Assembly (NCBI GenBank): GCA_015058875.1
Contig: SVBN01000010.1
Span: forward strand, 1 to 55,278
Length of the DNA stretch: 55,278 bases
Reading direction: 5' to 3'
Origin: Erysipelotrichaceae bacterium
GTDB taxonomy: Bacteria; Bacillota_I; Bacilli_A; Erysipelotrichales; Erysipelotrichaceae
Shown here: piece after piece, positions 10,684-54,950 of the stretch
Layout of the letters: each line of letters begins with the position of its first letter
Position numbering within the stretch: the stretch's first letter is position 1
The notes under the pieces: model-generated
Database searches by the model: none
Told to the model about the DNA's origin: nothing
The model's input: the letters and a program-made list of their open reading frames with translations, nothing else
Position numbers and translations under genes: made by a program

Positions 10684-10699
10684 ACGATCGCGCATAAAG

Positions 10700-10775
10700 T
10701 ACGATCGTAGTCTGACTGTTAAGGCAGTCAGGTAGAGACATTCCCGCCAGATCCGGGAACTTATACGATACGTGG
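10700..10775 (-). promoter_or_regulatory. purine riboswitch, guanine class
   Basis: The minus strand shows the three-way-junction aptamer: P1 ATCGTA / TACGAT, P2 TTCCCG / CGGGAA with loop GATCTGG (consensus GATATGG), J2/3 GTCTCTACC, P3 CTGACTG / CAGTCAG with loop CCTTAA, and J3/1 GACTAC. The C in GACTAC is the specificity base of guanine sensors (adenine sensors have U). A TATAAT box on the minus strand at 10785-10790 would start transcription just before the aptamer. The 3' P1 strand is part of GTACGATCGTAC, itself palindromic and repeated as GCGATCG downstream, which may form the alternative pairing. Confidence 0.9.
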
Positions 10776-10928
10776 ATACATGTTATTATAGGCGGAAAAC
10801 CTTTTTTGAAAAGGGAAAAAAACGATGTAAATGATTACATTTATGTGTTTTTCCGACTTCTTAAGCTTGTGGGAGCCAATGCGGCAGGATCCACATATAA
10901 TAAATATGGAAAGAAAAGGAACAGGCAT

Positions 10929-43885: not shown

Positions 43886-43959
43886 GCCGCTTTAGTATAG
43901 TGGAAATACACATCCATGGTAAGGATGAGCGGGCAGTTCAATTCTGCCAAGCGGCACCA
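43886..43959 (+). tRNA. tRNA-Thr(GGT), host of an integrated element
   Basis: Acceptor GCCGCTT / AAGCGGC, anticodon stem CATCC / GGATG around ATGGTAA, T-loop TTCAATT, encoded ACCA. Its 3' end faces an integrase gene 110 bases away, the classic tRNA integration layout. Confidence 0.93.
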
Positions 43960-44067: not shown

Positions 44068-45126
44068 TTATTTCTTCTTCTCTTTTACAAGGCTGTTTAA
44101 AGCTGCCAGTGAAGCAGACTGTTTATTATCGAAAATGTGTGCGTAGCGTTCCATGGTGACCTTCGGAGAGGCATGACCGATACGTTTTGATATCTCCGGA
44201 ACCGGTACGCCTGCATTCCACAGCATCGAAACATGGCTGTGCCGGAGATCATGGATACGCATATGCTGCAGACCGGCTGCCTTAAGATCGTTTTGGAAAT
44301 GAACATCAATTTTGGTAAGGCTGATCGGTGTCGCATCTCCAAACAAGTATTTGCCTGGACGTCTTTTCAGATACATGAGTTTACTCTTGGTGTCATCATC
44401 CAGGGGCACCCATCTTGAATTACCTGTTTTTGTCGTTTTTACAGAAGATTCATACCTTCGCATTGATTTGTAAATATGTACCTGTGCTCCGTCGAAATCT
44501 TCCTTCAGCAGGCTTCTGGCCTCACCTTTTCTGGCACCGGACATATAAAGAAACTGAAAGAAGATCTTCAGTACTTCGTCCGTTTCAGCATCCTGCAGCT
44601 TACAGAATTCATCGTAATTGATTATTACCATCTCATTGTAATCGTCCAACTGCTTTGGAAATGATTTCAGTACTTTGCAGTTATCAGGAATATCATAGTT
44701 TTCCCAGGCAAATTTACCCACCTGCTTCACATAGCCAATAATGTCATTTTTAGTCTGTGTTTTTAGCGAGTCACCGTTCTTCTTTTTTGCGGTTTCCAGT
44801 TTTATCCTCCATTTCTGCAAGACGCTTTTTGTGATCTTCTTCATCGGTTTATCCCAAAGTTCTCCGGCATATGTTTTCAAACGCTGCCTGCGGGTTTCTG
44901 TTGTGGTCTGGTTAGCTCTATTCGCAAGCGACATCAGTTCAAAAACGGCTCCAAAAGTCGTGTCGTTTCCAGCATATGATTCATGTTTATGACTGATTTC
45001 CCAGTTTCTGGCATCATCTGCTGAATTAAATCCCTTTTTTATAACAAATTTCAGGGTGCCATCATCTTTTCTGACATAATATCTTGCCTGCCATTTGCCG
45101 GTTTTCCTATCCTTTTTTACTGACAT
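44068..45126 (-). CDS. int: tyrosine-type site-specific integrase
   Basis: A 352-residue phage-type integrase. An AP2-like arm-binding N-terminus (KKDRKTGKWQARYYVRKDDG, with KGF-N-S-ADDA) is followed by a core-binding SAM-like domain and the catalytic domain with Arg199 (GARKGEA), His292-x-x-Arg295, His318 and Tyr328. I start it at 45126, after GGAGG; the longer frame runs into the upstream regulator, which it overlaps by 20 bases. It reads toward tRNA-Thr(GGT), the likely attachment site. It would insert and excise the element. Confidence 0.93.
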   Translation of the reverse strand: MSVKKDRKTGKWQARYYVRKDDGTLKFVIKKGFNSADDARNWEISHKHESYAGNDTTFGAVFELMSLANRANQTTTETRRQRLKTYAGELWDKPMKKITKSVLQKWRIKLETAKKKNGDSLKTQTKNDIIGYVKQVGKFAWENYDIPDNCKVLKSFPKQLDDYNEMVIINYDEFCKLQDAETDEVLKIFFQFLYMSGARKGEARSLLKEDFDGAQVHIYKSMRRYESSVKTTKTGNSRWVPLDDDTKSKLMYLKRRPGKYLFGDATPISLTKIDVHFQNDLKAAGLQHMRIHDLRHSHVSMLWNAGVPVPEISKRIGHASPKVTMERYAHIFDNKQSASLAALNSLVKEKKK

Positions 45127-45739
45127 AGAAATCCTCCGGATGAGGGATAGGTTTATCCGGCTGACTGATAACTTTGAATCTCTCATCAACGCGGATCGTT
45201 TTTCCTTGAACTTCAGTATACTCGATTTCAACTTCTGTTTTTGCAGCCACAATCAATAATCGCTGTATTTCAGAGGAAAGTAAGTGTAAATAGTATTTAT
45301 ACTGAGCTTCATTTAATCTTTGTATCTCAACATATAACGGTGTGCTTGACAAGAATTGTTCCAAATCTGCCTTATTAATAAAGTCAAAGGATTGCAGATT
45401 ATCTACAGCTTTCTTTCTGTCTAAATACTTTTGGTAAGTCAGGTCAGACGTCTCTGCTGAACGTATGGTCTTTTCACGCGGTCTGTCCACATATTTTATT
45501 TGGCTTCCTCTGAATATATCTGGATCCAGGTCAAGAATTTCCCCGATATCTTCAAGAGCAGAAAGTGAAATTTCCCTATTTCTTTTATATCTGCGAAGAG
45601 ATGTCATTTCTGCCTGTTTTGTGATGTTATTCTTTTTTGCGATTTGTAATGCCAGTTCATTAAGACTCATTCCTCTGTCTGACAGTTTTTCTTCAAGTAT
45701 TTCCGGATTGAACGGAACGCTCTTTTTAACATTGGCCAT
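45107..45739 (-). CDS. HTH transcriptional regulator (element repressor candidate)
   Basis: A 210-residue protein. The N-terminus (residues 14-75: EEKLSDRGMSLNELALQIAK then EMTSLRRYKRNREISLSALE) is an XRE-type helix-turn-helix; the C-terminal part is helical with no peptidase motif, so it is not a LexA/CI-type self-cleaving repressor. It is co-transcribed with int and divergent from a small Cro-like gene across a 130-base region with an 18-bp palindrome. This is the position of the Stl master repressor in Gram-positive phage satellites. AAGGAGG precedes the ATG. Confidence 0.75.
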   Translation of the reverse strand: MANVKKSVPFNPEILEEKLSDRGMSLNELALQIAKKNNITKQAEMTSLRRYKRNREISLSALEDIGEILDLDPDIFRGSQIKYVDRPREKTIRSAETSDLTYQKYLDRKKAVDNLQSFDFINKADLEQFLSSTPLYVEIQRLNEAQYKYYLHLLSSEIQRLLIVAAKTEVEIEYTEVQGKTIRVDERFKVISQPDKPIPHPEDFYVSKKG

Positions 45740-47796: not shown

Positions 47797-47800
47797 TTTT

Positions 47801-47818
47801 GGGGCAAATTGCCCCATA
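47801..47818. repeat. 18-bp direct repeat with palindrome, left copy
   Basis: GGGGCAAATTGCCCCATA. GGGGCAA-A-TTGCCCC is a perfect palindrome. An identical 18-bp copy lies at 51627-51644, so the two bracket module A of the sigma/ABC locus plus the 45-residue ORF. Confidence 0.75.
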
Positions 47819-47881: not shown

Positions 47882-49114
47882 CTATATGCTCAGCTTTTTA
47901 TATATTCTCAAAGTCAGCAGAAAATATACAGGAATTCCAATCATTTCGAATAATGTCATGGCTCTTTCTGTCGCAACAGCGATTGTCCCGACACTCAAGA
48001 ATGACAGTGAGTGAATAGCATAATAGAAACTACATTGAAGCATCAATCCACAGGAAGGCAGAAGCGTGATGATCCAGTCGGTGATCCCCGAACCGAAGAA
48101 TGTATCCAGCAGTATTGGCATAAATAGTCCCAGCAGAGAAATGCCGATCGCCTTTGCAGAAGTATGGATTGAAGCGGAAAGCATCATGGTAAAAAGTACT
48201 GAAGACACTGTGCAGATATATCCGGCAATAGCCATGTATTTCATAAGCTGACCGATTGTCCAAGGTTCAAAAGCAAACAGAGAAAGATAAGTTTGAATAT
48301 CGGAATTCAGTGCTGTTGTTCCATAAAACCATCGGGCCATCAAAAAGAATACTGCTGCGCTGAATACATACAAAACACTCACAATGATCAGTACAGAAGC
48401 ACATTTAACCAAAGCAAGCTTTGTCATACCATTTTTTGTACATCGCTGGATATCATCCGCGCCGGTCTGGTAATCAATCGAGAATACCGGCGCTGCCAGG
48501 ATCACGCCGCAGACCATGACCATAAACAATACAAGAAGTTCATAATCGAGTACATTGGAACTGAAGTACGGATAACACTGCAGCGGTGTCCGTGTGCTCT
48601 GGTACATCTTTGCGGCTTCTTTGCGGACCGGTTCAGGCCGGTTCTCCTGTTCCATAAGTGTGTTCAGCCGATTGAAACGAACAGTCTCAAACTGTTTCAA
48701 ATCCTCTTCCGTCAGTTCTTCCAGTCCTTTTGGTATTCCTGTTTTCGGATCTGCGTATGCCTCCCTTAGCATGTGCAGGAGACGGTAGTAAGGACCGATC
48801 CTGCTGCTGTAGACACCATCCGGAAGATCCTCCGGAGAACTGACATGATATTCTTCAAGAACCGTATTATATTCATTCAGACCTTCTGCCAGCAGATCGG
48901 GCGTCACCTCACCTGTAACATTTCCATGTATTTCCCGCAGCTGTGCCAGCGCGGCATAGCCTTTCAGAAGAACAGGCTGACCGTTTTCCAGAATCATACA
49001 TGATTCATACGTGACAGGAAGATACGAAAGAATGAAGTTGAATATGACGGCAGCTCCGATAATGATCAGGTTGGCCGGTGTTTTCAGCATCTTTTTTAGT
49101 TCCAGCCTCAGCAT
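47882..49114 (-). CDS. ABC-2 type permease, module A
   Basis: A 410-residue membrane protein. The N-terminal span (residues 12-32) is followed by a large extracytoplasmic domain (about 33-190, with no Cys), then five or six more spans to the C-terminus, the layout of ABC-2/YxlG-type permeases. It overlaps the ATPase gene by seven bases. It is last of the sigma - membrane protein - ATPase - permease operon. What it exports is unknown. The module B permease (51665) has the same size and layout but low residue identity by eye. Confidence 0.8.
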   Translation of the reverse strand: MLRLELKKMLKTPANLIIIGAAVIFNFILSYLPVTYESCMILENGQPVLLKGYAALAQLREIHGNVTGEVTPDLLAEGLNEYNTVLEEYHVSSPEDLPDGVYSSRIGPYYRLLHMLREAYADPKTGIPKGLEELTEEDLKQFETVRFNRLNTLMEQENRPEPVRKEAAKMYQSTRTPLQCYPYFSSNVLDYELLVLFMVMVCGVILAAPVFSIDYQTGADDIQRCTKNGMTKLALVKCASVLIIVSVLYVFSAAVFFLMARWFYGTTALNSDIQTYLSLFAFEPWTIGQLMKYMAIAGYICTVSSVLFTMMLSASIHTSAKAIGISLLGLFMPILLDTFFGSGITDWIITLLPSCGLMLQCSFYYAIHSLSFLSVGTIAVATERAMTLFEMIGIPVYFLLTLRIYKKLSI

Positions 49115-49992
49115 GACTCTCTTCCCCCTTCCTCAGGGAACATATGAAGGTAATAATCTTCCAGATGCGGGACACATGTTTTTGCCTCCGAAAATGGATT
49201 ATGATCACTCAGATACCGGAGTTCCAGCATATTGTTTCCGAGATTGCGGATATTGACGATGCGGACTGCACCTTCATAATGATGAAGTTCATCCACTCTG
49301 ATCATTGCAGTGAAAACACGGTTATGCATCTTTTCGGACAATTCCTCTGATGAACCATCCGCAATGATCCTGCCATCTTTCATAATAACGATCCGTGAAG
49401 CCATGTATTCTACATCCGGTACGATATGCGTTGAGATCAGAACGATCTTATCCTGTGCGAATTCAGAGATCAGATTGCGGAAACGGATCCGCTCTCCAGG
49501 ATCCAGACCGGAAGTCGGCTCATCAAGCAAGAGGACTTCCGGGTCGTTCAGCAGTGCCTGAGCAATACCAACCCGGCGTTTCATACCGCCTGACAGTTTC
49601 CGGATCTGTTTCTTTTCCACTTCTTTCAATGTCATACGCTCCAGAAGTTCATTGATCTTCTTTCGCGCGTCAGCAGAAGGAATCCCCTTCAGAGCTGACA
49701 TGTATTCCAGATAGTCCCGCACCGTGAACTCTGGGTAAAAACCGAATTCCTGAGGCAGATATCCGAAAATCGAACGATATGACTCCTGCAATACATCAAT
49801 TGGGATTCCGTCATAGCATACTTGTCCGGCATCTGGTTTCAGGATTCCGGCAATCATACGCATCAATGTTGTCTTTCCCGCACCGTTGGCACCAAGAAGG
49901 CCCCATACACCGGGCGACAGTTCCAGGCAAACATCATTAACAGCGATCTTGTCTTTGTAATTCTTCGAGATATGATCCAATAACAGTTCCAT
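49108..49992 (-). CDS. ABC transporter ATPase, module A
   Basis: A 294-residue ATPase. Walker A GANGAGKTT (about 34-42), Q-loop LPQEFGF, signature LSGGM, Walker B VLLLDEPTSGLDP and switch His in STHIV are all present. A C-terminal extension of about 70 residues after the nucleotide-binding domain (NRVFTAMIRVDELHHYEG onwards) is absent from the module B ATPase. With the permease it should form an exporter. It lies one base after the membrane-protein gene. Confidence 0.93.
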   Translation of the reverse strand: MELLLDHISKNYKDKIAVNDVCLELSPGVWGLLGANGAGKTTLMRMIAGILKPDAGQVCYDGIPIDVLQESYRSIFGYLPQEFGFYPEFTVRDYLEYMSALKGIPSADARKKINELLERMTLKEVEKKQIRKLSGGMKRRVGIAQALLNDPEVLLLDEPTSGLDPGERIRFRNLISEFAQDKIVLISTHIVPDVEYMASRIVIMKDGRIIADGSSEELSEKMHNRVFTAMIRVDELHHYEGAVRIVNIRNLGNNMLELRYLSDHNPFSEAKTCVPHLEDYYLHMFPEEGGRESC

Positions 49993-49993
49993 T

Positions 49994-50758
49994 TCAATCC
50001 TCCTGTATCTGTATCAACGGCAGGTGGCAAATGCGTATATGAAGTTCAGCAAGCAATATTCCGATGCATATCACACATATCAATACCGACCACCCTCCGG
50101 CAGGTGCGGGTAGGAAGTGCCTGAAGACTGTGTGAACGATAAGCAGAATTGTACTGGTCAAAAGTGTTATGACTCTGCTGTCCCGGTTCGGAAACAACTT
50201 ATGCCCCGCAAGCAGCAGACATACAGCTGTCAGATGTGCTGTACTGACAGTCAGGATAATCGCCTGGGGATCCATGATTTTCTTCAGTATGATTGCTGTA
50301 CATAAAGTGCCAAGGATGATCACACTTCCGACAGCAGAAACCAGCAGATGCAGAGCATAATATCTTTCCGAGGAGATACAGGAAGCCATTTCCAGTTCTT
50401 CCATACAATATGCTTTGGATCTCTTTCCTGACAGTACAGTTCCCGTTGCGGTCAGTACGGAGATAATCTTCAGAAAGAGCACTGCAGAATAGTTTTCCGC
50501 CAGTTCATACACAAATGCCGCTTTTACAAACAGTACAATGAGGAACGCGGTTACCAGATACAGACTGAGCCTTCTATATCCATATGTTCTGAATACAGTA
50601 CTCAGGTAATCATGCATCGTACTCACTGTATGCGTTGTCCGTTTCCTGATTTCCGGCTGCATCTCTGCTTTCAGGGCAGAAACTTTTGCCGGATCAATAA
50701 CCGGTTCTTCGGCAAACAGACCGTATAATCTTTGTTCAATTTGATTTTCAGGCATCAT
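49994..50758 (-). CDS. membrane protein next to ECF sigma, module A (anti-sigma candidate)
   Basis: A 254-residue protein: residues 1-65 are cytoplasmic and charged, followed by six membrane spans. It overlaps the sigma gene by 11 bases, just as in module B. The segment CMEELEMASCISSERYYALHLL matches GMEELEAASRFSLRFVRIVRMF of the module B protein in place and pattern, so the two are homologous. Next to an ECF sigma, a membrane protein with a cytoplasmic N-terminus is normally the anti-sigma factor. No zinc anti-sigma motif (HxxxCxxC) is seen. Start ATG ATG at 50758/50755 after AAAGGAG. Confidence 0.65.
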   Translation of the reverse strand: MMPENQIEQRLYGLFAEEPVIDPAKVSALKAEMQPEIRKRTTHTVSTMHDYLSTVFRTYGYRRLSLYLVTAFLIVLFVKAAFVYELAENYSAVLFLKIISVLTATGTVLSGKRSKAYCMEELEMASCISSERYYALHLLVSAVGSVIILGTLCTAIILKKIMDPQAIILTVSTAHLTAVCLLLAGHKLFPNRDSRVITLLTSTILLIVHTVFRHFLPAPAGGWSVLICVICIGILLAELHIRICHLPLIQIQED

Positions 50759-51269
50759 TCTTATACTCCTTTCTGATTTTATTGACTGCTCTCCGCAGTC
50801 TGGACTGTGCAGTTCTCATCGAGACACCTGTCGCTTCAGCGATCTCCTGCAGTGACATCTGCTGACCATATCTCAAGAGGATCGCTTCCCTCAGATCATC
50901 TGGAAGCGTATGGATCAGGGAAATAAGCTCATCATCTTTGAATCGGTATACCGTTTCTGCCAGCACAGCCTCATGCGTAAGCGGATCCAGCGGCACAGTA
51001 TCTATATGTTTTTTTCTGTAGATATCGATGCAGGTGTTCTTGGTAATCTGGTAAATATATGGTTTGAAGTGAAATGAACGGGTGATCCTTTTGATATGTC
51101 TAACCACCTTGATCATTACTTCCTGTGTGGCATCTTCCGCTTCTTCCCTGGATGACAAGTGCCATATACAGTATTTCAATATTTGTGGATAGTAGCGTTC
51201 CAATAGCTCATCGAGCGCTTTTGAATCACCATCCAGGATCTTTTGAACGAGTATTTCATCAGGCACCAT
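50748..51269 (-). CDS. ECF-type RNA polymerase sigma factor, module A
   Basis: A 173-residue sigma-70 family ECF factor. Region 2 (about 20-85) shows LLERYYPQILKYCIWHLSSR and EEAEDATQEVMIKVVRHI, with -10 recognition in YIYQITKNTCIDIYRKK; region 4 (about 118-168) shows LPDDLREAILLRYGQQMSLQ and a helix-turn-helix VSMRTAQSRLRRAVNKI. It is first in its operon, so it probably controls it. GAAAGGAGG precedes the ATG. Confidence 0.92.
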   Translation of the reverse strand: MVPDEILVQKILDGDSKALDELLERYYPQILKYCIWHLSSREEAEDATQEVMIKVVRHIKRITRSFHFKPYIYQITKNTCIDIYRKKHIDTVPLDPLTHEAVLAETVYRFKDDELISLIHTLPDDLREAILLRYGQQMSLQEIAEATGVSMRTAQSRLRRAVNKIRKEYKNDA

Positions 51270-51303
51270 GTTCCATCCTCCTTTCTGCAGGCTTCACCTC
51301 ACA

Positions 51304-51359
51304 CTTATATAAACGTAAAAACAGCAGGAAATGATTTCCTGCTTGTAATAAAACGTAAA
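51304..51359 (-). promoter_or_regulatory. duplicated ACGTTTWTA element upstream of sigma A
   Basis: On the minus strand TTTACGTTTTATTACAAG and TTTACGTTTATATAAG flank the 10-bp hairpin at 51323-51343. A related AACGTTATATGTA lies upstream of sigma B (54731-54743). A shared promoter element of an autoregulated ECF factor is possible. Confidence 0.35.
51314..51343 (-). terminator. hairpin upstream of sigma A
   Basis: AGCAGGAAAT-G-ATTTCCTGCT, perfect arms (51323-51332, 51334-51343); TGTTTTTACG follows on the minus strand. It would terminate the 45-residue ORF transcript, or attenuate sigma A. Confidence 0.65.
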
Positions 51360-51476
51360 TCTTAAGAAATGAACTGTACTGACTTTCTTCCTTGACAGTG
51401 AATTGTAACTGGCACTAATCTTTTAGAATATTCGTCCCATCTTTCCCTATTCTTTTATAAGGAAGCGTACAACTTG

Positions 51477-51614
51477 TTACTTTGTTCCTTCGGCATAAAT
51501 TTCCACCTCTTCCGCAATATCTTCCGGATCCGGATCAGGGAACCCACTTTCAAAGTCAATGGAATCAATTACTCTCAAAAGGTCATTTTTTGAGAGGACG
51601 ATGTTTTCAGCCAT
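51477..51614 (-). CDS. 45-residue acidic small ORF between the modules
   Basis: A short open frame with a strong GGAGG six bases before its ATG. It starts MAENIVLSKNDLLRVIDSID, continues FESGFPDPDPEDIAEEVE and ends IYAEGTK. It has about 14 Asp/Glu against few Lys/Arg, no Cys and no membrane segment. It lies between the two sigma/ABC operons, inside the 18-bp repeat pair, with a hairpin terminator downstream. It could be an export substrate, a regulator of one module or a remnant. No family recognised. Confidence 0.5.
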   Translation of the reverse strand: MAENIVLSKNDLLRVIDSIDFESGFPDPDPEDIAEEVEIYAEGTK

Positions 51615-51626
51615 TTTTCCTCCTTC

Positions 51627-51644
51627 GGGGCAAATTGCCCCATA
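51627..51644. repeat. 18-bp direct repeat with palindrome, right copy
   Basis: GGGGCAAATTGCCCCATA, identical to 47801-47818, just after the module B terminator and before the 45-residue ORF start. Confidence 0.75.
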
Positions 51645-51645
51645 A

Positions 51646-51668
51646 AAAAACGCAGCAGTAAGTGTTAC
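51646..51668 (-). terminator. terminator of module B
   Basis: On the minus strand AGCA-G-GTAA / TTAC-TGCT (one bulged G) is followed by GCGTTTTTTT. The stem contains the stop codon of the permease gene. Confidence 0.75.
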
Positions 51669-52849
51669 CTGCTTTTTATCTGCGTTTTCTTATATGAAGC
51701 CATCAGCAATGCAGCAGATATGATGATGCAGGCACTGTAAAGCAGAACCGACGCTTCCACATTATTCATCGTTCCATACCGGAATGTATTGCGGAACGTT
51801 CCGGCATACAAAACCATCGTAGGCCGCAGCTGCCAGAGTTTTGATATGACGCCCAGCTTCCCGGGAATGCTGAATGTACCCACCAAAATACTGGCGGCGT
51901 GGATTGCCATCGTCGCAACCGCAGACTCTGTCAGCAGGGAAAGCAGTGTATTGGTCATGGCAAACAGTATGCCTGCCAATATTGCCAGCGCAATGTAAAT
52001 CAGCATCATGGTGCCGGCCGTAATATTCCACGGTGACACAGGAATCACATTCTGGATCAAGGCATTCCATCCGGCCGTTCCGTAAATGAAGAACATCTCT
52101 CCCAGGCACAGGCCGAGCAGAAGAACCGTCTCGGCCGCGGCAATCGTGCTCCCCGCAGCGATTTTCGCAATGCAGACCGGCAGCCGGCCGTTTCTGGAAG
52201 ACAGGATCATGGCATCTGTCCGCCAGGTTTTTTCGTCCGCGAAGATGCCGGCCAGCGCGACCGATATATTCAGAATCAGCGCCCAGCCGATGATGTACAG
52301 AATGCCCAGAACCCGCAGATATGCCAGGGCATATGAATAAACCATCGGTTTTTCCGTCCCGTCATAGATTTCAAGCCATGTATCCAGCTCTTCAGCGGAA
52401 GCGCCGAGTTCCGTGCTGTCATTGATGATGTCCTCCCGCATGGCGGCATGGAATTCATCCGAAGTGACGGCGGCTGCCTTTCCCCGGTCACGCACAACGC
52501 TGTACAGAAAATCATACAGTGCCGCTTTCCCGATCTGCCCGGCAGCATTCTGATACACTGCGCCCGGATCGTATGCCGCCAGCTTATCGAAAAACGCAGG
52601 GTTTCCCGCAATCTGCTGATCCATTTCAGCTTTGAAGCTTTCCAGGAAAGCATCATCCATCGGGCTTCCCGAAAGAGCTGTCAGGCGTGTTTCCTGTTCT
52701 TTCACATAGTCGCTGTGGCCGTCTGCGGACAGATTTGCCAGCCCTGTCAGGAGAACCAGCACGATACTGACGGCCATGGCTGCCCAGACCGATTTTTTTG
52801 CCAGGATCTTTCTGATCTCTGTTTTATATAGTAAAAAGATATTACTCAT
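51665..52849 (-). CDS. ABC-2 type permease, module B
   Basis: A 394-residue membrane protein with a first span near residues 22-40, an extracytoplasmic domain (about 41-180, rich in Asp/Glu/Ala) and five or six C-terminal spans. Same layout as the module A permease. It overlaps its ATPase gene by eight bases (seven in module A). The GC content looks higher than in module A. Substrate unknown. Confidence 0.8.
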   Translation of the reverse strand: MSNIFLLYKTEIRKILAKKSVWAAMAVSIVLVLLTGLANLSADGHSDYVKEQETRLTALSGSPMDDAFLESFKAEMDQQIAGNPAFFDKLAAYDPGAVYQNAAGQIGKAALYDFLYSVVRDRGKAAAVTSDEFHAAMREDIINDSTELGASAEELDTWLEIYDGTEKPMVYSYALAYLRVLGILYIIGWALILNISVALAGIFADEKTWRTDAMILSSRNGRLPVCIAKIAAGSTIAAAETVLLLGLCLGEMFFIYGTAGWNALIQNVIPVSPWNITAGTMMLIYIALAILAGILFAMTNTLLSLLTESAVATMAIHAASILVGTFSIPGKLGVISKLWQLRPTMVLYAGTFRNTFRYGTMNNVEASVLLYSACIIISAALLMASYKKTQIKSR

Positions 52850-53555
52850 CTTCTCCTCCGAATGTTTTCAGGTAAAAGGTTTCCAGGTCTCCCTGAATAT
52901 CTGCTGCCTGGCCGTCAAAAACAATGCTTCCGTCCTTCATCATCAGGATCCGGTCCGCGATGTGTTCCACATCGGACACGATATGCGTGGAAAGAATGAC
53001 AATCGCATCCCTGCCAAGATCCGCAATCAGATTCCGGAACCGCACTCTTTCCTTTGGATCCAGCCCGGCTGTCGGTTCATCCAGGATAAGGATTCTGGGC
53101 TCATTCAGTACTGCCTGCGCGATTCCCAGCCGCTGCTTCATGCCGCCCGAATACGTCTTGATCTTCTTGTCTGCTGCCTTTTCCAGGTTTACGGTCTGCA
53201 GCAGTTCTTCACATTTTCTTTTGGCCGCGCGCTTGTCAATTCCTTTCAGGGCGGCCATATACATCAGGAATTCCCTGCCTGTAAAATCCGGATAATAGCC
53301 GAAATCCTGCGGCAGATAACCCAGTGCATCCCGGTACAGTTCTTCCGACGCATTCAGGATATCGTTTTCTGTCCGGAAGCAGACCGTGCCGGCTGTCGGC
53401 CGCAAAATCCCGCAGATCATTCGCATAAGCGTCGTCTTGCCGGCGCCGTTTGCCCCGAGAAGCCCGGTTACCCCGGGATGTAAATCCAGGCTGACCTGCT
53501 TCACCGCGGTCGTGCCGGCATACTGTTTCGTCACATCCTCTAATATAAGTTCCAT
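52842..53555 (-). CDS. ABC transporter ATPase, module B
   Basis: A 237-residue ATPase with Walker A GANGAGKTT, LPQDFGY, signature YSGGM (first residue Tyr instead of Leu), Walker B ILILDEPTAGLDP and STHIV. It is colinear with the module A ATPase, with the near-identical GLLGANGAGKTTLMRMI, but stops after the core domain. It overlaps the membrane-protein gene by 16 bases. Confidence 0.93.
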   Translation of the reverse strand: MELILEDVTKQYAGTTAVKQVSLDLHPGVTGLLGANGAGKTTLMRMICGILRPTAGTVCFRTENDILNASEELYRDALGYLPQDFGYYPDFTGREFLMYMAALKGIDKRAAKRKCEELLQTVNLEKAADKKIKTYSGGMKQRLGIAQAVLNEPRILILDEPTAGLDPKERVRFRNLIADLGRDAIVILSTHIVSDVEHIADRILMMKDGSIVFDGQAADIQGDLETFYLKTFGGEDE

Positions 53556-54253
53556 GATAAATTCTCACTTTCTTTCACATACAGCAGGCATTCCCTGAGC
53601 ATTGCCCCAAGAAGCAGCGCAATCAGCAGGGGAATCATGAGGCCCGGCGCCTGCCCGGGCAGCTTCAGCTGTCTCAGCATATACGGCAGCAATCCGCTGA
53701 AAGCACATACTGCCAGTACACCGAAGATATTTTCTTTACCATGCCATTTCCTTGTGACAAGCATGGCGCCGTAGGTGCTGGCAAGATAGGGGAACACAAC
53801 CAGCATCAGCTGCTCCATCACCGGAACAGATGCCGCAGCCCGCAGGATGATGCCGACCGCCGCCAGCAGAACCATGCTGAAAACACCCAGGATAAACATG
53901 CGGACGATCCGGACAAACCGCAGGGAAAACCTGCTCGCTGCTTCCAGTTCTTCCATTCCGTACCGTTCGGACCGCGACAGGAGAGCCATCGGAACCAGCG
54001 CACACGCCGGAACAAACGAGACAATGACCCATACCATGTCCGGATCCTCTGCGCCGGCAACCATCCACAGCAGCGCTACCAGAATGATGCCGGCAAGGAT
54101 GCTTTTCAGCCCCATATACCGGAACTCTGTTCTGATGATGTCGGAAATCTGCAGTGAACGTTTTTCATATTTTCTGACAAAGTGTTTTTCCTTCTCTGTT
54201 TCCGGCAGTGCATACGCATTTTTCAGCATTTTCATGATCTCTTTATCGGTCAT
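53540..54253 (-). CDS. membrane protein next to ECF sigma, module B (anti-sigma candidate)
   Basis: A 237-residue protein: about 45 cytoplasmic residues, then six membrane spans, with GMEELEAASRFSLRFVRIVRMF between spans two and three as in the module A homologue. It overlaps the sigma gene by 11 bases, the same as in module A. Likely the anti-sigma factor or sensor. Its N-terminal cytoplasmic part (LKNAYALPETEKEKHFVRK) is helical and lacks a zinc motif. Confidence 0.65.
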   Translation of the reverse strand: MTDKEIMKMLKNAYALPETEKEKHFVRKYEKRSLQISDIIRTEFRYMGLKSILAGIILVALLWMVAGAEDPDMVWVIVSFVPACALVPMALLSRSERYGMEELEAASRFSLRFVRIVRMFILGVFSMVLLAAVGIILRAAASVPVMEQLMLVVFPYLASTYGAMLVTRKWHGKENIFGVLAVCAFSGLLPYMLRQLKLPGQAPGLMIPLLIALLLGAMLRECLLYVKESENLSWNLY

Positions 54254-54713
54254 CAGGATATTCGCCTCCCAGCAGTTTTCTTAATATTCCAAGCCCTTCC
54301 TTTAATCTCCTGTTAACTGAAAACCTTGACATTCCCATTACCTTCCCGATATCTGCAGCCGAAATATCATTTACATATCTCATGACGACAATCTCGCGGA
54401 GTTCCTCCGGCAGCTGCGCCAGCGCTTCCTCTACCGCAAGGCCGTCCAGCACATTCTCAGGCCCGGTGTTCCGGCAGGCCGGAAGCTCCGGATGTGCATC
54501 GATATCCAGTGCCGACGGCCGGCGGAATTCATCCATGCACAGGTTCCTGGCGATCGTATAGAGATATGCCATCTCTTTTCCTGTGTCCTCATAGGAGCGG
54601 CTCTGCCAGAACTTCAAAAAAGTCTCCTGCACAATATCTTCCGCCAGGGAGCTGTTTTTTGTTTTCATATAACAGTACCTGAGGAGCTTATCGTACTGTT
54701 CTTTCAGATCCAT
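54243..54713 (-). CDS. ECF-type RNA polymerase sigma factor, module B
   Basis: A 156-residue ECF sigma factor, shorter than its module A paralogue. Region 2: LLRYCYMKTKNSSLAEDIVQ and ETFLKFWQ, then YLYTIARNLCMDEFRR; region 4: LPEELREIVVMRYVNDISAA and MSRFSVNRRLKEGLGILRKLL. AAAGGAAC precedes the ATG. Upstream AACGTTATATGTA may be its promoter. Expected to drive module B and perhaps cross-talk with A. Confidence 0.92.
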   Translation of the reverse strand: MDLKEQYDKLLRYCYMKTKNSSLAEDIVQETFLKFWQSRSYEDTGKEMAYLYTIARNLCMDEFRRPSALDIDAHPELPACRNTGPENVLDGLAVEEALAQLPEELREIVVMRYVNDISAADIGKVMGMSRFSVNRRLKEGLGILRKLLGGEYPDDR

Positions 54714-54950
54714 GGATGTTCCTTTCTCTGTACATATAACGTTCTAACCGCCGGGTTTGTGCGGCAAAAACCGGAAAAACCATGACCTTCTTCCGGCAGA
54801 TCAGTTATTTAGCGTATCATAACGCCTGCGGCAGGATCCAAACACTGAAACTTCAGCGAAAAAAAAGATCACGGATATGCTGCGCATTTATACAATGTTA
54901 GAAATCTTGATGTCTGTGTATGTTTCTACACCCCTACAAATTGGAAGTTG

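Follow-up and report, generated by a model that had tools for sequence, protein, structure and literature searches.

The DNA stretch analysed here, hereafter the window, is one whole contig of 55,278 nucleotides (SVBN01000010.1) from the draft genome of an Erysipelotrichaceae bacterium (GCA_015058875.1; 125 contigs, 3.03 Mb). Its right-hand part carries two four-gene operons, A and B, each encoding a sigma factor of the extracytoplasmic function (ECF) type, a multi-span membrane protein, an ATP-binding cassette (ABC) ATPase and a permease. We report that the two operons are related without being sisters, and our data suggest that operon A reached its present place as an intact block inserted into the loop of a transcription terminator.

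Gene content of the two operons

Protein domains were searched for in Pfam and NCBIfam, open reading frames (ORFs) were compared with PHROG, tRNA genes were predicted with ARAGORN and defence systems with PADLOC, and hydrophobic segments of the operon proteins were located by a Kyte-Doolittle scan. Genomes and loci used for comparison carry our own labels (G and L numbers). The operon genes are the following (aa, amino acids).

54243..54713, minus strand: operon A ECF sigma factor, 156 aa (Pfam Sigma70_r2 53.2 bits, Sigma70_r4 46 bits)
53540..54253, minus strand: operon A membrane protein, 237 aa, putative anti-sigma factor/sensor (ORF, hydropathy, 11-bp overlap with the sigma gene)
52842..53555, minus strand: operon A ABC ATPase, 237 aa (ABC_tran 118.9 bits)
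51665..52849, minus strand: operon A permease, 394 aa (ABC2_membrane_2 25.0 bits, cut-off 27.2; position behind the ATPase gene)
50748..51269, minus strand: operon B ECF sigma factor, 173 aa (Pfam Sigma70_r2 59.4 bits, Sigma70_r4_2 54 bits)
49994..50758, minus strand: operon B membrane protein, 254 aa, putative anti-sigma factor/sensor (ORF, hydropathy, 11-bp overlap with the sigma gene)
49108..49992, minus strand: operon B ABC ATPase, 294 aa (ABC_tran 114.8 bits)
47882..49114, minus strand: operon B permease, 410 aa (ORF, hydropathy, 55% identity to the L060 permease)

All eight ORFs were recovered where an earlier note, made from the sequence alone, had placed them, in two leftward operons with the order sigma factor, membrane protein, ATPase and permease. 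Both sigma factors score above the cut-off (42.9 bits) of the ECF superfamily model TIGR02937, with 72.3 bits for A and 101.1 bits for B, and are hence ECF sigma factors; GANGAGKT and SGGMK motifs are visible in both ATPases. The membrane proteins, which the note had described as six-span, have about six hydrophobic segments each, behind approximately 45 (A) or 60 (B) residues. No Pfam family scored above its cut-off for either membrane protein or for permease B, and none of the membrane proteins and permeases matched an NCBIfam family at E 1; for the two permeases there was also no match to a solved structure at E 0.1. The motif MEELE-x-AS is common to the membrane proteins and GLLGANGAGKTTLMRMI to the ATPases, as had been noted. 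The gene overlaps, said to match, do so between the sigma and membrane protein genes (11 bp in both operons) and nearly so between the ATPase and permease genes (8 bp in A, 7 bp in B), but not between the membrane protein and ATPase genes, which overlap by 16 bp in A and are separated by one base in B. The GC content of the genes is 0.50-0.53 in A and 0.44-0.47 in B.

Ancestry and arrival of operons A and B

All four A-B pairs are more similar than shuffled sequence (z 14.1 for the sigma factors, 5.9 for the membrane proteins, 44.6 for the ATPases and 5.5 for the permeases, at 30%, 25%, 53% and 24% identity, respectively), and A and B are to this extent paralogous modules, as the note had it. 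Its description of them as a duplicated, diverged pair is not supported. In the ATPase tree, which has 22 rows, A clusters with G066 and a Saccharofermentans genome and next with L077 and L078, and B clusters with G023 and a genome from the Oscillospiraceae. A tree constrained to make A and B sisters is worse by 136 log units (approximately unbiased (AU) test, p-AU 1.6e-60), and the same grouping is rejected for the sigma factors (11-row tree, p 3.9e-6) and the permeases (12-row tree, p 1e-47); separate clades for the two sigma factors and the two ATPases are what the note itself had listed as evidence against duplication.

When 70 genomes of the genus, counting that of the window, were searched at the DNA level, operon A turned up in three other species (G019, G020 and G084) at 99-100% identity, and in G066 at 70%. 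In an alignment of 3,200 bases the window copy differs at 7 positions from that of G019, at 18 from G020 and at 17 from G084; between one of these three genomes and another, the flanking genes agree at only 92-97%. In all three, operon A lies between genes for glutamate racemase and an acetyltransferase, at a locus that also has a short glutaredoxin-like gene (labelled by eye) and an M14 peptidase gene, and G006 has such a source-type locus with a plain terminator and without A. The site occupied in the window is in turn free in G013: window positions 51510-51666 correspond to L057 2735-2891 (157 bp, 93.6% identity) and positions 54878-54940 to L057 2891-2953 (63 bp, 96.8%). Since both flanks meet at one base (L057:2891), the insertion appears clean, with at most one target base duplicated, and the following features can be delimited.

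51666..54878, minus strand: transferred unit, comprising all of operon A, its promoter and, at either end, half of a terminator hairpin (shared block 99.4-99.8% identical in G019, G020 and G084; unoccupied site in G013); the left end is ambiguous by two bases and the right end by one
51651..51666, no strand: left junction, at which one arm and the loop of the target hairpin meet the end of operon A (comparison with the G013 and G019 contexts)
54857..54885, no strand: right junction, half hairpin of the transferred unit joined to the other target arm (comparison with the G013 and G019 contexts)

Two other accounts of this arrangement can be weighed against these data. That operon A stands where it does through a chimeric metagenome assembly might be suspected from the many contigs of the draft, from the position of A 400 bases from the contig end, from the near identity of A to copies in related genomes, possibly obtained from the same sample, and from the G013 contig, which also ends close by. 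Two independent chimeric joins would, however, hardly return to the same G013 base, and A differs from each of its three near-identical copies; we therefore hold a chimera to be very improbable and, judging from the sequences, take A as shown to be a clean insertion and no assembly artefact. A tandem duplication in place of one operon, followed by divergence, would explain the like gene order, strand, 11-bp overlaps and motifs of A and B. It is at least as hard to sustain: sister grouping is rejected in three trees, so that the operons are not the result of local duplication, A is a recent insertion with an unoccupied site and near-identical copies elsewhere, and the GC contents of A and B are unlike. 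The 11-bp overlap is no sign of local duplication either, because it is a trait of the family, present also in L058, L060 and L069 (other spacings occur in L068, L070, L072 and L078). A local, recent duplication is refuted by the trees and the unoccupied site; an ancient duplication that preceded the split of the clades may have occurred and would then mark no more than how the family began.

The entry point of operon A lies in the loop of a terminator hairpin in G013 (-12.8 kcal/mol), and in G019 both ends of the shared block are likewise inside terminator hairpin loops (-14.1 and -20.3 kcal/mol, plus strand). Loops of terminator-type hairpins, defined by a perfect stem of at least 7 and an A or T tract, make up 1.9% of the non-coding positions in the window (gene spans listed by hand), and three of three junctions in such loops are unlikely to have arisen by chance, in a test framed post hoc. 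As each of the two G019 hairpins straddles an edge of the block, with one arm on either side, the G019 context is probably the older one and the present site the recipient.

This mode of entry recalls insertion sequences (IS) that target hairpins. In G020 a transposase gene (DDE_Tnp_1_6, DUF772; L014 7287-8876), which we take to belong to the IS1182 family, replaces the right terminator hairpin that operon A has in G019 and G084; G000 and G013 have one relative of it each, at 62% identity and with a stop inside in G000 and at 86% in G013. IS1272 and TnSha1 of that family insert into hairpins, which are often terminators, and do not duplicate the target (PMC5678879, PMC4923244), as is the case for A, and they too provide an example of a host gene carried between species (PMC4923244, PMC5678879). 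The transposase gene of G020, standing in place of a hairpin, also resembles the replacement of stem-loops by IS1272 (PMC5678879, PMC4923244). An IS of this kind may thus have moved operon A and been lost since. We consider this unlikely: there is no transposase gene inside 51666-54878 or directly beside A in the window genome, IS1272 removes its target stem-loop (PMC5678879) whereas both target hairpin arms are retained around A, and G019 and G084, which both carry A, have no match to the G020 transposase at E 1e-60.

More speculatively, terminator hairpins could bound a mobile cassette that carries no transposase. A complete autoregulated operon would be excised by cuts in the loops of the terminators on its two sides and, in another species, joined into a further terminator at its loop; such loop-to-loop joining, by a hairpin nuclease or by a hairpin-targeting transposase acting in trans, would spread operons together with their own regulation. 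We put this forward as a tentative idea, on balance a doubtful one, and the excerpts surveyed gave no account of transposase-free insertion into terminator loops. The move of operon A is to us the most interesting part of these findings, since a loop-to-loop insertion with a near-identical source context and unoccupied sites raises the question of whether operon-sized DNA that brings no transposase along can generally enter genomes at intrinsic terminators.

Operon B lies in a different setting, a segment of lower GC content with a tyrosine integrase, a regulator and an AAA_25 ATPase beside a tRNA gene.

43886..43959, plus strand: tRNA-Thr(GGT), probable integration site of the operon B segment (ARAGORN)
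44068..45252, minus strand: tyrosine integrase adjoining tRNA-Thr (Phage_integrase 64.2 bits; phrog_1 integrase)

In the same genus sample the best match to B elsewhere is a 600-base stretch of the ATPase gene in G023 (72% identity), with shorter stretches in other genomes; the G023 locus (L060) is a related four-gene operon. A search for a repeat of the tRNA-Thr end, which could have served as second attachment site, gave no match longer than 13 bases rightward of the region where the integrase gene starts.

Some further observations concern this part of the window. A 21-bp direct repeat (20/21) at 47798-47818 and 51624-51644 flanks operon B together with a small ORF (51477-51614, 45 aa, no Pfam or PHROG family); its core is the 15-base palindrome GGGGCAAATTGCCCC, one copy of which lies just upstream of the small ORF and which has no other site in the genome at one mismatch or fewer. 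A near version of the 45-aa ORF is found in G013 (L057 2705-2839), where antitoxin-like and Doc-like genes (L057 1933-2720, labelled by eye) replace the segment with the integrase and operon B at the same tRNA-Thr site. Upstream of operon B, positions 51448-51481 match L061 7207-7240 in G003, where the end of an integrase gene is followed by a terminator hairpin, and the match covers the loop and a single arm of that hairpin; this is possibly another junction in a terminator loop.

A wider family of modules and its promoter motifs

A profile built from nine membrane proteins matched 14 of 272 genomes in the family, among them that of the window; this number is a minimum, because G023 was missed although it has the operon. 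At eight of the nine new loci the membrane protein gene is preceded by a sigma gene and followed by an ATPase gene (no hit at the ninth). Of the ORFs that come next at these eight loci, behind the ATPase gene, three match permease A and five are unassigned. A scan of the named collection kept 80 loci, 18 of which were inspected; BLAST placed a sigma gene two genes before the ATPase gene in seven (L068, L069, L070, L072, L075, L077 and L078), with the membrane protein and permease ORFs of L072 unassigned. L071 is cut off upstream, and at L067, L074 and L076 no sigma gene was found by BLAST upstream of the ATPase relative. At L073 (3003-5855) a response-regulator-like gene and a further gene, both labelled by eye, precede the ATPase relative in place of the sigma factor and membrane protein genes. 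Neither membrane protein had a match at E 1e-5 in 72,556 plasmid records, and a search of viral contigs, which reached close relatives only, gave no relative of either permease.

A reading of the operons as a defence system was set aside. In PADLOC only the two ATPases matched with weight (mad3 as top model, 1.2e-32 and 1.5e-30), hits that we take as matches to the ATPase domain; sigma factor B had one weak match (mad1, 8e-4), and the membrane proteins and permeases had none.

Each sigma gene is preceded by a putative ECF-type promoter.

54735..54763, minus strand: operon A promoter motif CGCACA-N16-CGTTATA, 21 nt before the sigma gene start (conserved upstream of related sigma genes)
51308..51336, minus strand: operon B promoter motif AATCAT-N15-CGTTTATA, 38 nt before the sigma gene start (conserved in L060 and L069)

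These motifs support autoregulation of both operons, which the note had expected, and they differ in their -35 elements. Upstream motif scores were compared with shuffled sequence and genome-wide counts with reversed control patterns. The A motif has no mismatch in the window, L077 and L070, one in L058 and two in L075 and L068, and 0 of 300 shuffles were as good at each of these loci except L068 (2 of 300); L078 has too little upstream DNA to be scored. The B motif has no mismatch in the window and in L060 and two in L069 (0 of 300 shuffles each). At every scored locus the motif of the other clade has at least four mismatches, and upstream of L072 neither motif was found. In these sequences the A and B motifs thus follow the sigma tree. 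Among the eight later-found loci, L194 and L196 have the A motif at two mismatches (0 of 200 shuffles each), and L195 has both of its halves with a 15-base spacer, which was seen by eye and missed by the fixed-spacing script.

The window genome has one perfect site for each motif, at its own operon, and 4 (A) and 2 (B) sites with one mismatch, compared with 2 and 0 for the reversed controls. A wider sigma A regulon was considered and rejected for perfect sites: the two found in 392 genomes of the phylum are this operon and a site inside an opp-type coding sequence in G035.

Proposed regulation and related systems

Our reading, which we favour as probable while leaving room for doubt, is that A and B are separately acquired, non-sister members of a widespread Bacillota module made up of an ECF sigma factor, a membrane regulator and an ABC exporter, that A was inserted as an intact 3.2-kb block into a terminator loop, and that each operon forms an insulated loop under anti-sigma control. 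Operon B belongs to the integrase-bearing segment, and operon A would have been cut at the loops of the two terminator hairpins bounding it in its source context and placed in the loop of the resident terminator. Anti-sigma action, signal, export, substrate and insulation are parts of this scheme that we infer. The membrane protein would keep its own sigma factor inactive through its short N-terminal region until a membrane-borne signal, perhaps a peptide or another envelope-active compound, frees the sigma factor, which would then transcribe mainly or only its own operon; the exporter would clear the compound and thereby end the signal.

Adjacent genes are the usual layout of sigma/anti-sigma pairs, and it is the position of the membrane protein gene and its overlap with the sigma gene that make its product a likely anti-sigma factor and sensor. 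Alternatively, the membrane protein could be an accessory subunit of the exporter or a sensor without anti-sigma activity, with the sigma factor governed by its own transcription or by another protein. The absence of a recognised anti-sigma domain and the merely 45-60 residues or so ahead of the first hydrophobic segment would fit this, as would the ATPase relative of L073 behind its response-regulator-like gene and the three loci at which BLAST found no upstream sigma gene. ECF257 is moreover listed among the ECF groups without an anti-sigma factor and with ABC transporters nearby (PMC8999054). Against it, the membrane protein gene directly adjoins the sigma gene and shares 11 bp with it in A, B, L058, L060 and L069, and eight of the nine newly found loci pair a membrane protein gene with a sigma gene; we regard this alternative as unlikely but deserving of attention.

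Several points weigh against the scheme of separately acquired, anti-sigma-controlled modules. The membrane proteins match no anti-sigma family in Pfam or NCBIfam, which leaves the anti-sigma role a prediction from gene arrangement, and the permease assignment is weak, with A below the cut-off and B without a Pfam match. For operon B neither an unoccupied site nor an end of the element was found, and the right flank of the unoccupied A site spans 63 bp only, 28 bases from the end of the G013 contig. Coding differences between A and its near-identical copies (synonymous/non-synonymous, 4/3 for G019, 12/6 for G020 and 7/9 for G084) indicate no clear constraint since transfer. In favour of the scheme, non-synonymous divergence (dN) from G066 is 0.14-0.23, and synonymous divergence (dS) has a defined value, 2.2, in only one of the four genes, which indicates that the genes of operon A were under constraint over that distance. 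The promoter motifs were derived from the same loci that were later scored for mismatches, five of the eight later-found loci have neither motif, and the two places of the perfect A pattern in the phylum compare with four for the reversed control; the additional one-mismatch sites for A and B also make wider regulons conceivable.

The likeness to the sigY-yxlCDEFG operon of Bacillus subtilis, proposed in the earlier note, is borne out in design. That operon comprises an ECF sigma gene, then a gene for a small regulator, and then genes for an ABC ATPase and its permease, as do, in outline, our two ECF sigma/membrane protein/ABC modules. Here the regulator position is occupied by one multi-span membrane protein without a family match, and the likeness is one of gene order. 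The sigma factors are not SigY, scoring 51.9 (A) and 83.3 bits (B) with the NCBIfam SigY equivalog model (cut-off 194). SigY has been linked to sublancin through the maintenance of SP-beta (PMC10141391). A second parallel is offered by the LytTR systems of Streptococcus mutans (SMU_433/434 and SMU_1070c/1069c), in which a regulator gene with positive autoregulation is followed by one for a transmembrane inhibitor, and in some of which ABC transporter genes follow, likely cotranscribed (PMC6193735). By analogy, both designs would have an autoregulating regulator held by a membrane inhibitor, together with ABC genes (PMC6193735); they differ in the regulator, which in the S. mutans systems is a DNA-binding protein of the LytTR type that acts at direct repeats and in our operons is an ECF sigma factor that has a promoter motif of its own.

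With regard to anti-sigma factors, neither membrane protein has a class I anti-sigma domain match above the Pfam cut-off. Anti-sigma domains of fewer than 50 residues have been set aside as possible class II (PMC7406223), and the short, presumably sigma-binding region of our proteins may resemble that of class II factors such as CnrY; the membrane proteins have no sequence match in Pfam or NCBIfam. The literature excerpts surveyed hold no description of an ECF sigma/membrane protein/ABC module as found here, the full ECF classification being outside that survey. We see the design as known and the combination of a membrane protein without a family and promoter motifs that track the sigma tree as a variant of it. 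The module is compact and self-contained, a putative sensor-exporter whose membrane component has no family in the libraries searched, and the presence of two versions side by side with different promoter motifs makes insulation between paralogous ECF circuits directly testable.

Elsewhere in the window, an ORF at 54951-55277 matches a WapI-like immunity family (44.4 bits) and is cut by the contig end, and a purine riboswitch (10688-10788, 68.4 bits) lies upstream of an ORF that by eye resembles a membrane permease.

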